Assembly (NCBI GenBank): GCA_905182635.1
Contig: CAJJCM010000002.1
Span: 1 to 46,651 of the forward strand
Reading direction: 5' to 3'
Origin: an uncultured Candidatus Poseidoniales archaeon
GTDB taxonomy: Archaea; Thermoplasmatota; Poseidoniia; Poseidoniales; Poseidoniaceae
Length of the DNA stretch: 46,651 nt
Position 1 is the first letter of the stretch. Every line of letters begins with the position of its first letter. The position numbers and the translations under genes are program-made. This document shows positions 21,619-25,837 of the stretch, piece by piece. The notes beneath the pieces were generated by a model. The model worked only from the letters and a program-made list of their open reading frames with translations, was not told the origin of the DNA and made no database searches.

Positions 21619-23022
21619 ATGCTTCCAGATGATGCAGTCGACCGTATTGTAGCGGGTTGCCGAAGCATTGGTGCTCTCTGTCAAAGCCAAGGTGTTCAAC
21701 AATGGGAAATCGTGGCCACACAATCGTATGGGCACAGCATAGACATTGAAGCGGGTAAAATCGCCCTTGCTGCCGGAGGCGGTGAAGGTGGCTATGGTAT
21801 TCGGATTGTCGAAGATGGACGATTTGGTTATGCATATCTTGTCGATTTAGGCTCTGCAGATTATGCCATTCAACAAGCACGCGATATTGCTAAAGTATCG
21901 CCTTCTGTGAAGGGTTTTGTCCTTCCGAGTGAACAAGAGGCGAAAAAAGTAGGAGGATTGTTTGACAAGAACATCCTCAGTATTGGTCCCGAAGATTTAC
22001 TTGAACAGGCTGATGCGATTTTGAGTGAAGTTGCTTCCCTTGATGAACGAGCCGTCGTTACTGGCGGTGGCTTAGGCGTTGGAGCAAGTGCTGATGCGAT
22101 TTTTTCCAGTGAAGGGATCGAGTCCAGCGGTGTGACGACTTCACATGGAATTGGTGTTCAAGTTTCCATCGATGCCGATGATGAGTTGACCAGTTCATAC
22201 GAAGGTGATTCAAGTTGTCAACGCCTTCAGAATGTACCTGATTGTATTGCTGTTGCTGTTGATTGGGCACAGAAGACCCGTGGGCCTATTGAAGTCAATA
22301 CCGAAGCACATGACACTCCAGTTTTGATGACAAGTGAAGGTTTTTCACCGTTGTTTTCAATGGTCGTTCCTTCTGCTGTTCGTGGTGACCGGTTGGTTCG
22401 AAATGAATCATTCTGGTCTGGAAAGCAAGGTGAACTTGTGCTTGCAGACGACCTTTCACTCATCGATGATGGAAGAATGGAGGGCGGAAAATCGGCTTCT
22501 TCTCGAGATGGAGAAGGCGTTCCAACTCGCCGCCAAACCTTAGTCGAAAACGGCCGTCTTGTTGGTTCATTGTGGTCGACAAGAGATGCTGCACAACAAG
22601 TGGCTGAAGGCCGTATCGAACATGCAGAAACCAACGGTTGTGCAGTTCGAGGTAGTCATCAAAGTCCACCGGGTACTGGCTGTGCTGATTTACAAATGGT
22701 TTCCTCTCGAAAAAGCTCCTCGCAAGAGGCACTTCTTGAGCGAATGGAAGACGGTTACATCGTCCATAGCGTCATGGGGGCGCATACTGCGAATCCAACC
22801 AGTGGTGATTTCTCGGTTACATCGAGTACGCTCTTGCGGGTCGAGGGTGGAGAAATTCTAGGACCGGTTAAGCAAGCTGGGCTATCTGGTAATCTTGCTA
22901 AGGCTCTTTCTAAAGAAGTGTACCTTGGGAATGATGTTCGTATCCAAGGATCTTATTCATCCGGCAACATGCACCTTCCTGACGTCCTGTTGATGCAAGG
23001 ATTACGAATCAACCCCGCATAA
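21619..23022 (+). CDS. tldE: TldE/PmbA, partner of TldD
   Basis: Non-catalytic paralogue of TldD that completes the heterodimeric protease. It has the same overall fold (GGEGGYGIRIVEDGRFGYAY in the N-terminal half, SGNMHLPDVLLMQGLRI at the C-terminus) but lacks the HExxxH motif, as expected for the E subunit. Length of 467 residues is usual. Its start lies 2 bp after the tldD stop. The stop is followed by the unusual 190-bp gap before rpa. Confidence 0.93.
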   Translation: MLPDDAVDRIVAGCRSIGALCQSQGVQQWEIVATQSYGHSIDIEAGKIALAAGGGEGGYGIRIVEDGRFGYAYLVDLGSADYAIQQARDIAKVSPSVKGFVLPSEQEAKKVGGLFDKNILSIGPEDLLEQADAILSEVASLDERAVVTGGGLGVGASADAIFSSEGIESSGVTTSHGIGVQVSIDADDELTSSYEGDSSCQRLQNVPDCIAVAVDWAQKTRGPIEVNTEAHDTPVLMTSEGFSPLFSMVVPSAVRGDRLVRNESFWSGKQGELVLADDLSLIDDGRMEGGKSASSRDGEGVPTRRQTLVENGRLVGSLWSTRDAAQQVAEGRIEHAETNGCAVRGSHQSPPGTGCADLQMVSSRKSSSQEALLERMEDGYIVHSVMGAHTANPTSGDFSVTSSTLLRVEGGEILGPVKQAGLSGNLAKALSKEVYLGNDVRIQGSYSSGNMHLPDVLLMQGLRINPA

Positions 23023-23213
23023 GTCTCTCAGTCGCTTGATTCGATAATCAACGGAAAGGAACAAAGTCCACGGCATTCTTTATGTCCTGTCGTCTCTCCT
23101 GTAGTTATCCATGGAGGTCAAGGGAGTGTACAGTCTCAACCAAACCGCACGAAAGCCCGCAGCCTGTTCTCCGTACAGGCCCCGAACGAACACGTCTGGC
23201 GGAGGTCTTTGCA
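23023..23213 (+). other. GC-rich leader region upstream of rpa
   Basis: A 191-bp gap between tldE and the supported rpa start. It starts AT-rich with a TGATT/AATCA repeat (about 23037-23050), carries a TATA-like TTCTTTATG near 23076-23084, and then becomes clearly GC-richer than the neighbouring gaps. The 3' part has a 6-bp hairpin (GCCTGT/ACAGGC, 23162-23180) and two copies of GGAGGTC, at about 23113 and 23201. The second copy is the rpa ribosome binding site. A small ORF fits in it (listed separately); otherwise it may be a roughly 100-nt structured leader. Confidence 0.4.
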
Positions 23214-23221
23214 ATGTCTGA
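23111..23221 (+). CDS. Possible 36-codon upstream ORF overlapping the rpa start
   Basis: An ATG at 23111, about 29 bases after the centre of a TATA-like TTTATG, opens a 36-codon frame (MEVKGVYSLNQTARKPAACS...) that stops at 23219-23221, eight bases past the first base of the rpa ATG. An internal GTG at 23126 lies 7 bases after GGAGGT and could be an alternative start. The peptide is basic with two cysteines and resembles nothing I know. The layout suits a leader peptide coupled to rpa translation, but the frame may be open by chance. Confidence 0.25.
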   Translation: MEVKGVYSLNQTARKPAACSPYRPRTNTSGGGLCNV

Positions 23222-24908
23222 AAAATACGAAACGCACGTTAAATCGATACTCGCAGAATGTCCTGATGCCAATCCGGAGGAAGTATCTGCAGCCTTTGCA
23301 AAATACGAAACAGAATTCTTTATTCCGCCACAAGATGCTATGCGTTCGATTCTTCGACGCTTCAAGGGTGAAACAACACCTACTCCATCAGCAGGGACCT
23401 CTGGTTCATCCTCTTCAGCACCTAAACCCACACGTAAGGTGAGCCGATTAAGCGAATTGAAAGGCGACGACCGAGAAATCGAGATTGAAGTGGAAATTAT
23501 TTCCCACAATATTCGTGACCAAACGATTCGAGGCGAGGAAAAGCAAATCGCCTTTGGACTTCTTGAGGATAACCCTTGGGAAGAGAATGGTGAGAAAAAC
23601 CGTTGGGAATACAAAGATTGGGGCCCGAACTCCAATATTACTCCCGGTTCAGTCGTTCGTATTGAAGGTGCTTCAGTCAATGAATATCAGGGGAAGATGT
23701 CGTTGAACATCAATCAATCCACCCGTATCGCTGTTATTCGTGAAGGAACACGCCCTGTGACCGCCCCTGGCGAGGCTCAAGACATCTCGAGTTTGCCATC
23801 TGAGGGCTATGTCTGCATTGTTGGACGAATTCTTGCCACTCGCCCCGACCAGATTCACCGTAAGGATGGTACGGGCTCAATTGATATCATTCGAGGCCGC
23901 CTCGCAGATGAAACAGGTACTATTGGTTTCCTTTCATGGGAGCCTCTTGAACACGAAGTAGGAACGCTTCTCAAGATTGAAAGTGCACAAGTTCGAACGT
24001 TCCGAGATACACCTGAACTCAACTTCGGGCGGACAACAAAAATCGAAGTCTATCACGATAAGAATTTTGCAAATGTCGACGCACTCTCTGAACAGACCGT
24101 ACTGACTTTATCTGAACTCCGAGACGGAGCACGAGATGTTGACGCAGTCGTTCAAATTACTGAATGGGCAAAACGTTCGTTCACCCGTGATGGTGAAGAG
24201 CGCTTCCTCTGGTCGGGTCAAATCGCTGACCCAACCGGCCGTTGCAGAATGAGTGCATGGAGTGAATTGCCCATTACTGAAGACCAATTGCCGTTAACTG
24301 TTCGTCTCAAAGGCGTACGTGTGCGTGCCTGGCAAGGCATCCCCGATATCACCATTGACACAATCGATCAAGTCGAAATACTCGATGCACCTCCTTGGGA
24401 CAGCGAATTGGATTTGAAAAACCATACCGTTGAAGTCGCTTTGCATGAACTTTCTACCGGTGCAAGCCGAATCGGAATCTCGACCAGTGCAATTGTGGTT
24501 AGTGTTCGAGAAGATTCTGGCTTTATCAAACGGTGCACAGAATGCCGTCGAGTTCTCCGAGAAGGAGCTTGTGCTGATCACGGACCAAACGATGGTAACA
24601 ACGATATACGCCTGCGTTTGGCTATTGATGATGGACGTGCTAGTGTCTCTTTGTTGACGAATAAGGACGCAACATTGAGTCTTCTTGGAATGAATGAATC
24701 CGAACTTCAAGGTGCTATTGACGATGCTGGACAGATTGCTTTTGTTCAGTCCTTGCGTGAAAAGATGCTCGGGCGTAAAATCAATGCTTCAGGCCGTACC
24801 ATTGTCGATGAACAAGGTGCTATGCTGCTCGCAGATGGTGCTTCAATGATTGACGAAGATGCAGGATTACGGGCGACTGAAATCCGTGCTCAATGGAGGG
24901 TTGCTTGA
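23214..24908 (+). CDS. rpa: Replication protein A, single-stranded DNA-binding, multiple OB folds
   Basis: Main single-stranded DNA-binding protein for replication and repair. After a helical N-terminal segment (YETHVKSILAECPDANPEEV) and a Ser/Pro-rich linker come OB-type domains: about residues 75-180 (VSRLSELKGDDREIEIEVEI), 190-290 (EGYVCIVGRILATRPDQI) and 295-400 (LSELRDGARDVDAVVQI). A zinc-finger-bearing domain follows (CTECRRVLREGACADHG) near the C-terminus. This matches euryarchaeal RPA. The track start at 23082 adds 44 residues without RPA character; ATG 23214 has GGAGGT eight bases upstream and is the better start, giving 564 residues. The stop overlaps the next ATG (TGATG), so RPA and its partner are translationally coupled. 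Confidence 0.92.
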   Translation: MSEKYETHVKSILAECPDANPEEVSAAFAKYETEFFIPPQDAMRSILRRFKGETTPTPSAGTSGSSSSAPKPTRKVSRLSELKGDDREIEIEVEIISHNIRDQTIRGEEKQIAFGLLEDNPWEENGEKNRWEYKDWGPNSNITPGSVVRIEGASVNEYQGKMSLNINQSTRIAVIREGTRPVTAPGEAQDISSLPSEGYVCIVGRILATRPDQIHRKDGTGSIDIIRGRLADETGTIGFLSWEPLEHEVGTLLKIESAQVRTFRDTPELNFGRTTKIEVYHDKNFANVDALSEQTVLTLSELRDGARDVDAVVQITEWAKRSFTRDGEERFLWSGQIADPTGRCRMSAWSELPITEDQLPLTVRLKGVRVRAWQGIPDITIDTIDQVEILDAPPWDSELDLKNHTVEVALHELSTGASRIGISTSAIVVSVREDSGFIKRCTECRRVLREGACADHGPNDGNNDIRLRLAIDDGRASVSLLTNKDATLSLLGMNESELQGAIDDAGQIAFVQSLREKMLGRKINASGRTIVDEQGAMLLADGASMIDEDAGLRATEIRAQWRVA

Positions 24909-25837
24909 TGCAATCTGGAACACGTGCAAAGCGCCAACCTGCTTGGCACATGCTTGCCTCTGAATACAGTGAAGCTACGCTCAATGAGAAAGGCTCAGGT
25001 GAATATGACCCTTCCTTTGTCATCACGAAACTTGGCGCTAAAGTCAACAGAGTGGTCGTAGCGGGACTTTTGGAACGACTTGAAGTTCGAGAGACATCCA
25101 ACGGTTCAACACTCCACCAGGGACAAATGCGTGACCCATCAGGGGTCCATTACTTTTCAGTTGGAGATTATGCAACTGAATCAATGCGTGAACTTACGTT
25201 GGTTTTGGCTAAGAAACTCGAAGCTGGAGAGCCGGTACTTCTCCTCATGGTGGCTAAATCAAAATGGTATCAAACCGATGAAGGAGCAATCTATACTTCA
25301 CTTCGTCCTGAGGAAGCATGTGAGATTGATGCGCAACAGTATGCTCTTTGGCTGACTCGAACCTGTGAAGACACTCTACAGAGAATGAAGCATTTTTCTG
25401 ATTCGTTGTCGGCTGAACCTACACGAGAAGGATTGATTGGCGCAGGAATTCCGGAACACATGGTCGATGGGCTGCTTGTGTCTCGAAATCATTATGGTGA
25501 GATTGATATTGAGAATTATACCCTCAACATCATGCAAGCTTTGGATATTGCTGAAGGACGCATGGAGGCAGCCAGCCAGCCAGTCGCCGCACCTGCTCCA
25601 AATCAAGATGCAGATGCAGGTGAAGTTGCTACAGGTGACGAATCTGAGGTAAAGGAGACGATTATCTCGATTATTGAGCAACTTGACCAAGGCGATGGTG
25701 TCGATTTTGAAACTGTGTTAACCAATACAGTCGCACGTGGATTTGACCGAAGTTTGGCTGAAGATAAACTCGATGAACTCTCAAATGAAGGCACACTCCA
25801 CGAACCAAGATTTGGTTGGTTTAGAATCGTAGCCTGA
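24908..25837 (+). CDS. RPA-associated protein (COG3390-like)
   Basis: A 309-residue protein encoded immediately after rpa, with a TGATG overlap and GGAGGG upstream; the track's ATG at 24893 is therefore an overextension. The N-terminal domain (AWHMLASEYSEATL, YDPSFVITKLGAKVNRVVVAGLL) is an OB-fold-like region typical of euryarchaeal RPA-associated proteins, which bind their cognate RPA. A Pro/Ala/Asp-rich linker leads to a C-terminal winged-helix-like domain (ETIISIIEQLDQGDGVDFETV, KLDELSNEGTLHEPR). The domain order and the rpa linkage are those known from haloarchaeal rpa-rpap operons. The role is presumed to be stabilising or modulating RPA on single-stranded DNA. Confidence 0.85.
   Translation: MQSGTRAKRQPAWHMLASEYSEATLNEKGSGEYDPSFVITKLGAKVNRVVVAGLLERLEVRETSNGSTLHQGQMRDPSGVHYFSVGDYATESMRELTLVLAKKLEAGEPVLLLMVAKSKWYQTDEGAIYTSLRPEEACEIDAQQYALWLTRTCEDTLQRMKHFSDSLSAEPTREGLIGAGIPEHMVDGLLVSRNHYGEIDIENYTLNIMQALDIAEGRMEAASQPVAAPAPNQDADAGEVATGDESEVKETIISIIEQLDQGDGVDFETVLTNTVARGFDRSLAEDKLDELSNEGTLHEPRFGWFRIVA

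Follow-up and report, generated by a model that had tools for sequence, protein, structure and literature searches.

A conserved upstream frame laid over mutually exclusive RNA helices before rpa in Poseidoniales: a probable translation-gated leader

The stretch of DNA preceding a gene for a single-stranded DNA-binding protein in an uncultured marine archaeon raises the question of whether the mRNA leader itself could take part in controlling this protein. Few examples of regulatory RNA leaders have, to our knowledge, been described in archaea, and the way in which the cellular level of replication protein A (RPA) is set remains an open question. The window, i.e. the whole stretch of 46,651 nucleotides that was analysed, is a contig of a draft genome whose closest named relatives are “Candidatus Poseidoniaceae”, UBA91 and UBA258 (Marine Group II). 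Upstream of the leader lies the pair tldD-tldE (Pfam PmbA_TldD domains) and downstream of it lies rpa:

23023-23213, + strand: rpa leader, between the tldE stop codon (23020-23022) and the rpa ATG at 23214
23214-24908, + strand: rpa, replication protein A-like single-stranded DNA-binding protein, 564 aa

The rpa product matches the OB folds of solved SSBs and aligns with NCBIfam PRK07218 (E 3.7e-78), but under the curated cut-off of that model. In relatives L021, L022, L024-L026, L029, L030, L203 and L209, the start codon of rpa is apparently TTG and not ATG. The end of rpa in the window is overlapped by a 314-aa gene (24893-25837) for which no significant family was found in Pfam or NCBIfam and which, judged by its position, may encode an RPA-associated protein.

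The original prediction, made from the letters of this DNA only, had presented the leader as richer in GC than other gaps. Its GC content does exceed that of the window (52.4% vs 47.2%) and reaches 56.1% in the part 23100-23213, but two of the 12 other gaps slightly surpass it (53.2-53.5%), which leaves the description only roughly true. Folded as a single sequence, the window leader has no unusual energy (z +1.4), so that a structure is visible only through the comparison with relatives. These were located through the RPA protein and their upstream DNA was then retrieved, mostly from metagenome assemblies; the resulting set of leaders is partly redundant, some loci being the same genome taken from two collections.

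A frame of 36 codons (23111-23221) had been proposed within the leader. It exists and its TGA falls inside the rpa start, but its ATG at 23111 is not conserved, several relatives having CTG or CAG at this place. In contrast, all 144 distinct upstream open reading frames (uORFs) collected share, in the same frame, the GTG at 23126. The uORF is thus most likely of 31 codons:

23126-23221, + strand: uORF, 31 codons, GTG start, product VYSLNQTARKPAACSPYRPRTNTSGGGLCNV, with a TGA stop overlapping the rpa start region

The frame is open from the same GTG in 57/57 of the first relatives, with 31-37 codons and a GGAGG about 8 nt ahead of the GTG in every one of them, and it is also open in all further loci. 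The wider set comprises about 176 related leaders with uORFs of 27-45 codons and takes in every genus sampled in Poseidoniales, including g11, g12, g15, g16 and g20. In the window, the TGA (23219-23221) overlaps the region of the downstream start (ATG 23214). This overlap is general in the window's family; the stop lies 4-26 nt ahead of the rpa start in a second family, probably Thalassarchaeaceae. Among the first relatives, the distance from the uORF stop to the rpa start ranges from -26 to +20 nt.

A sequence-only model of the uORF start region matches 258 of the 340 genomes of the class and 35 of the 38 near-complete ones, almost always once per genome and only before rpa; the apparent misses that were inspected (g11, g12) carry diverged versions of the leader. 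The possibility that other genes share it was discarded, the second matches being weak and partial or belonging to a second rpa locus. One assembly (G184) carries two rpa loci, C13:448 and C14:119939 (L170 and L171), with an identical leader peptide, which reflects either a duplication or assembly redundancy. The leader was not found outside the order in 243 genomes of the phylum, save two borderline partial matches (E about 0.008), nor in the sister family f3, save one match at E 0.048, and a search with three patterns gave no viral copies. No Rfam 15 covariance model matches the window leader, the only hit being a chance one to mir-204 (E 0.057), far under the gathering score, and the leader is undescribed in the open-access PubMed Central papers searched (CC0, CC BY and CC BY-SA only).

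The TATA-like element announced by the original prediction is present:

23079-23084, + strand: TATA box of the rpa promoter, TTTATG

In most relatives, a box of this kind stands 44-49 nt ahead of the uORF GTG. This position places the transcription start, by inference and not by measurement, about 5-9 nt ahead of the uORF Shine-Dalgarno (SD) sequence, so that the leader would have its own promoter, independent of tldD-tldE. A GC-rich element, CCNGTCGNC (window 23070-23095; relatives L032-L058), follows the TATA box at a near-fixed distance and takes the form ACCGYCG in the second family, where a GTCGGT-like inverted copy is found about 40 nt upstream. In a search of 13 genomes, the strict form, CTTTATNNCCNGTCGTC, was confined to the rpa promoter. 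This element is possibly the operator of a transcription factor.

Consensus folding of separate clades yielded a common 5' stem-loop, and further pairings connect it to the ribosome site of rpa. The segments involved are the following:

23113-23124, + strand: strand A, uORF SD GGAGG and linker, pairing with strand B
23126-23129, + strand: 5' side of helix P2, GUG start codon and next base (GUGU), pairing with GCAC at 23147-23150
23130-23146, + strand: conserved 17-nt apical loop, ACAGUCUCAACCAAACC; most members fit NNCUNMMCCAAN
23147-23150, + strand: 3' side of P2 (RCAC), uORF codons 8-9
23156-23167, + strand: strand B, CCC (23156-23158) and GCCUGU (23162-23167), pairing with A, or alternatively with C through GCCUGU
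23168-23180, + strand: strand C, UCUCCGU (loop of the B:C hairpin, with the anti-SD CUCC) and ACAGGC, the latter pairing with B; C pairs alternatively with D
23194-23206, + strand: strand D, GUCUGGCGGAGGU, holding the rpa SD GGAGG (23201-23205) and pairing with C

In A:B, AGGU (23115-23118) pairs with GCCU (23162-23165) and GGG (23122-23124) with CCC (23156-23158). Against shuffled partners, this helix gives a Stouffer z of -8.3 over 36 clusters, compared with -3.0 and +0.2 for neighbouring control segments. In its fixed register, 268 of 420 cells are paired vs 221 +/- 8 after shuffling, a count reached in 0/2000 shuffles; wrong registers are paired at 41-47% vs 64%, and several pair types occur at identical positions. 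Among the close relatives of the window A:B is nearly invariant, with almost no covariation, and the helix is supported by the comparison across the wider order. The invariance of the GTG (144/144) is attributed to the pairing of the start codon with CAC in P2. In genus g9 (L058, L204, L206), this CAC is lost or shifted; in L058 and L204, GGUGU could pair instead with ACGCC, an apparent compensatory shift. An H-type pseudoknot combining GGU/ACC with GUG/CAC was considered and dropped, GGU not covarying with ACC in the wider set. The apical loop is a possible binding site for a ligand or a protein, no ligand having been identified.

Two sites GGAGGTC and a hairpin had also been pointed out in the leader, and both now find a place in the same architecture. 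The sites (23113-23119 and 23201-23207) correspond to the SD sequences of the uORF and of rpa, the latter 8 nt ahead of the ATG at 23214, and are tied into competing helices; the hairpin (GCCTGT-TCTCCGT-ACAGGC, 23162-23180) is B:C. In the window's family, B:C has a z of -9.7 over 27 clusters; it is 100% paired, with two pairs showing double changes and a score reached in 0/500 shuffles, and its strands read GCCUGU/ACAGGC in the window, CCCGUC/GACGGG in g12 and GCCAG/CUGGC in g15. In C:D, the CUCC loop and ACAGGC are paired with the region of the rpa SD, GUCUGGCGGAGG, with a z of -9.4 vs +1.4 for a control segment in the window's family, 92.8% of the pairs formed and double changes in four pairs and 15 cells (0/500 shuffles). 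B cannot pair with A and C simultaneously, nor C with B and D, which makes these helices mutually exclusive. The z-scores take clusters as independent, and relatedness means that their significance is overstated; on this comparative evidence, the double changes and the wrong-register controls, rather than the z-scores, carry the argument for the predicted helices. The downstream half of the mechanism is not uniform, because C:D is weak in some relatives (L021, L024, L026, L029 and L194) and the second family uses another long-range helix, between the loop (codons 1-5) and the uORF end (z -12.6 vs +2.8 for a control). In the window's family, pairing of the apical loop with the rpa end was tested and is unsupported (z -1.2).

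Taken by itself, this strong covariation could belong to a structured RNA acting alone, as a riboswitch or a protein-binding leader for whose ligand or protein the conserved loop would be suited, and the open frame would be a mere by-product; a peptide that is unconserved after codon 11 fits with this explanation. A stop test was run on 59 clusters at 80% identity, each represented by one sequence, with the anchor GTG picked by motif and not by openness. Over codons 2-27, stops occur in 0/59 clusters in the uORF frame, the other two frames having them in 45 and 38 clusters; over codons 13-27 no cluster has an in-frame stop where shuffling predicts 30.1 (minimum 19 in 1000 shuffles). Insertions and deletions respect the frame in the same way: L117 and L118 have exactly one additional codon close to the uORF start, and in L184 (relative to L117) and L194 one base is lost after codon 10 and regained later, the frame being restored before the stop. 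The shifted middle of L184 rejoins the ending that it shares with L117 (DRRG...HV in both). A by-product would not account for these features, nor for a stop position tied to the rpa start or a properly spaced SD before an invariant start codon, and an RNA working without translation of the frame is accordingly judged unlikely.

The original prediction had left the choice between a coupled leader peptide and a structured RNA, and would have been refuted by frameshifts and stops in orthologous leaders without covariation. The opposite is observed and both options are supported, since an open frame ends at the rpa start and covariation is present in the same nucleotides. The codon-level conservation which it proposed to check holds for the frame, open across the order, but selection on amino acids is absent from codon 12 on (pN/pS 0.93). 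Changes beyond codon 11 are evenly spread over the three codon positions (155/151/156), and such values in a frame that is kept open suggest that translation itself, and not the peptide, matters. Judged from these comparisons, selection keeps the uORF open and correctly terminated without keeping its peptide beyond codon 11.

According to a nascent-peptide attenuation, the uORF peptide would stall the ribosome in response to amino acids, drugs or stress, and the stalled ribosome would select B:C or C:D; the layout of three mutually exclusive helices is that of classical attenuators, and a pattern at the N terminus, L-[NP]-Q-x-[AT]-R, is found repeatedly throughout the order. However, codons 2-11 hold the pattern CTN-MMC-CAA-NNN-RCA-C mostly at the nucleotide level, with GCA or ACA but not GCC, GCG or GCT, and with CAA almost never replaced by CAG. 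The conserved codons thus behave as nucleotide constraints, which the loop and P2 account for, and the conserved amino acids or regulatory codons expected at the stall site of an arrest peptide are missing. The conserved codons are moreover located very near the start for an arrest in the ribosomal tunnel, and the remaining peptide evolves without amino-acid constraint, which leaves this explanation quite improbable. A functional small protein co-expressed with RPA would also agree with a frame open order-wide and provided with its own SD; it is made very improbable by the pN/pS from codon 12, the equal rates at all codon positions and the frame-shifted middle tolerated in L184 and L194. Finally, an N-terminal extension of RPA from an in-frame ATG at 23082 is scarcely credible, for although the window and its close relatives have an open rpa frame upstream of the start, other members have stops there, the SD GGAGG lies 8 nt before the ATG at 23214, and the ATG at 23082 would precede the inferred transcription start.

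We consider it probable that the rpa mRNA carries at its beginning a translation-gated RNA switch, in which translation of the uORF unmasks the rpa SD, although no expression, probing or Ribo-seq data support it. The comparison shows a uORF kept open and ending at rpa and competing helices that are conserved; the order of the ON and OFF states, the coupling to rpa, the ligand and the effect on the RPA level are inferred. Near the 5' end, the uORF SD and GUG would sit in the stem-loop formed by A:B and GUGY:RCAC, under the conserved 17-nt loop. In the window's family, A:B together with C:D would cover both ribosome sites, while B:C would expose both. A ribosome starting on the uORF would melt A:B, cross B, C and D and finish on the rpa start codon; behind it B:C could re-form, so that the rpa SD would stay accessible for reinitiation or for a new initiation event. 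The output of rpa would then follow initiation on the uORF, and the conserved loop could tune it, possibly with RPA as repressor. For the window leader, the energy model gives a free minimum of -26.6 kcal/mol that contains B:C, and -23.6 for A:B plus C:D. Two predicted states within 3 kcal/mol are compatible with a switch of unproven direction, the proposed OFF state not being favoured by this model.

By analogy with known autogenous control, RPA is the most economical candidate regulator, binding the conserved loop; this is a testable guess, RPA binding being untested. The fuller scheme, in which throughout Poseidoniales RPA, or a signal of DNA damage or replication acting through it, would bind the loop that hides the uORF start, so that a throw-away frame gates RPA synthesis, can only be offered tentatively and remains rather doubtful. 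An abundant and uncultured order of marine archaea has conserved this leader, whose strands and base pairs are exactly named, which makes the idea testable. It also represents a clean case in which translation apparently serves an RNA switch as a mechanical component while most of the peptide is ignored by selection.

Several known systems resemble this leader in part. Attenuators of the erm and trp type have a short leader ORF laid over mutually exclusive strands and control a downstream ribosome site (erm) or a terminator (trp). The rpa leader likewise has a short ORF over mutually exclusive helices, A:B, B:C and C:D sharing strands B and C, but its uORF has neither a conserved arrest peptide nor a run of regulatory codons. 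The conserved 17-nt loop would be compatible with a metabolite riboswitch; the association with a single gene, rpa, hints at no metabolite.

Coupling through RNA unfolding or through termination-reinitiation is a known general mechanism (PMC12548453). The rpa leader resembles it by its adjacent or overlapping frames and by a downstream ribosome site in an inhibitory structure, which upstream translation would unmask (PMC12548453). Of the features that define a coupled pair, the short or negative stop-start distance is met, as is the downstream ribosome site in an inhibitory structure, through C:D, a comparative prediction limited to the window's family. The differences from this general mechanism are that the upstream frame of rpa encodes no conserved protein, that an alternative partner within the same strands also sequesters the ribosome site of this frame, and that the leader is found in one archaeal order, before rpa.

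Another parallel concerns phage T4, in which a structured 5' element of the gp32 mRNA mediates repression by gp32 itself (PMC535899). The gene 32 operator consists of a 5' pseudoknot followed by a less structured stretch rich in UUAAA/UAAA over the ribosome site (PMC535899). In the window leader such a pseudoknot and such UUAAA/UAAA repeats are absent and the ribosome site is predicted to be paired; the rpa leader has instead a stem-loop, a uORF and competing helices, and is not homologous to the operator. Both are structured 5' mRNA elements of an SSB-type replication protein, which makes an autogenous control plausible for rpa, and the analogy concerns the possible mode of working and not the descent. 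If true, the rpa leader would be a cellular counterpart of the autogenous control of phage gp32, built on a new RNA architecture.
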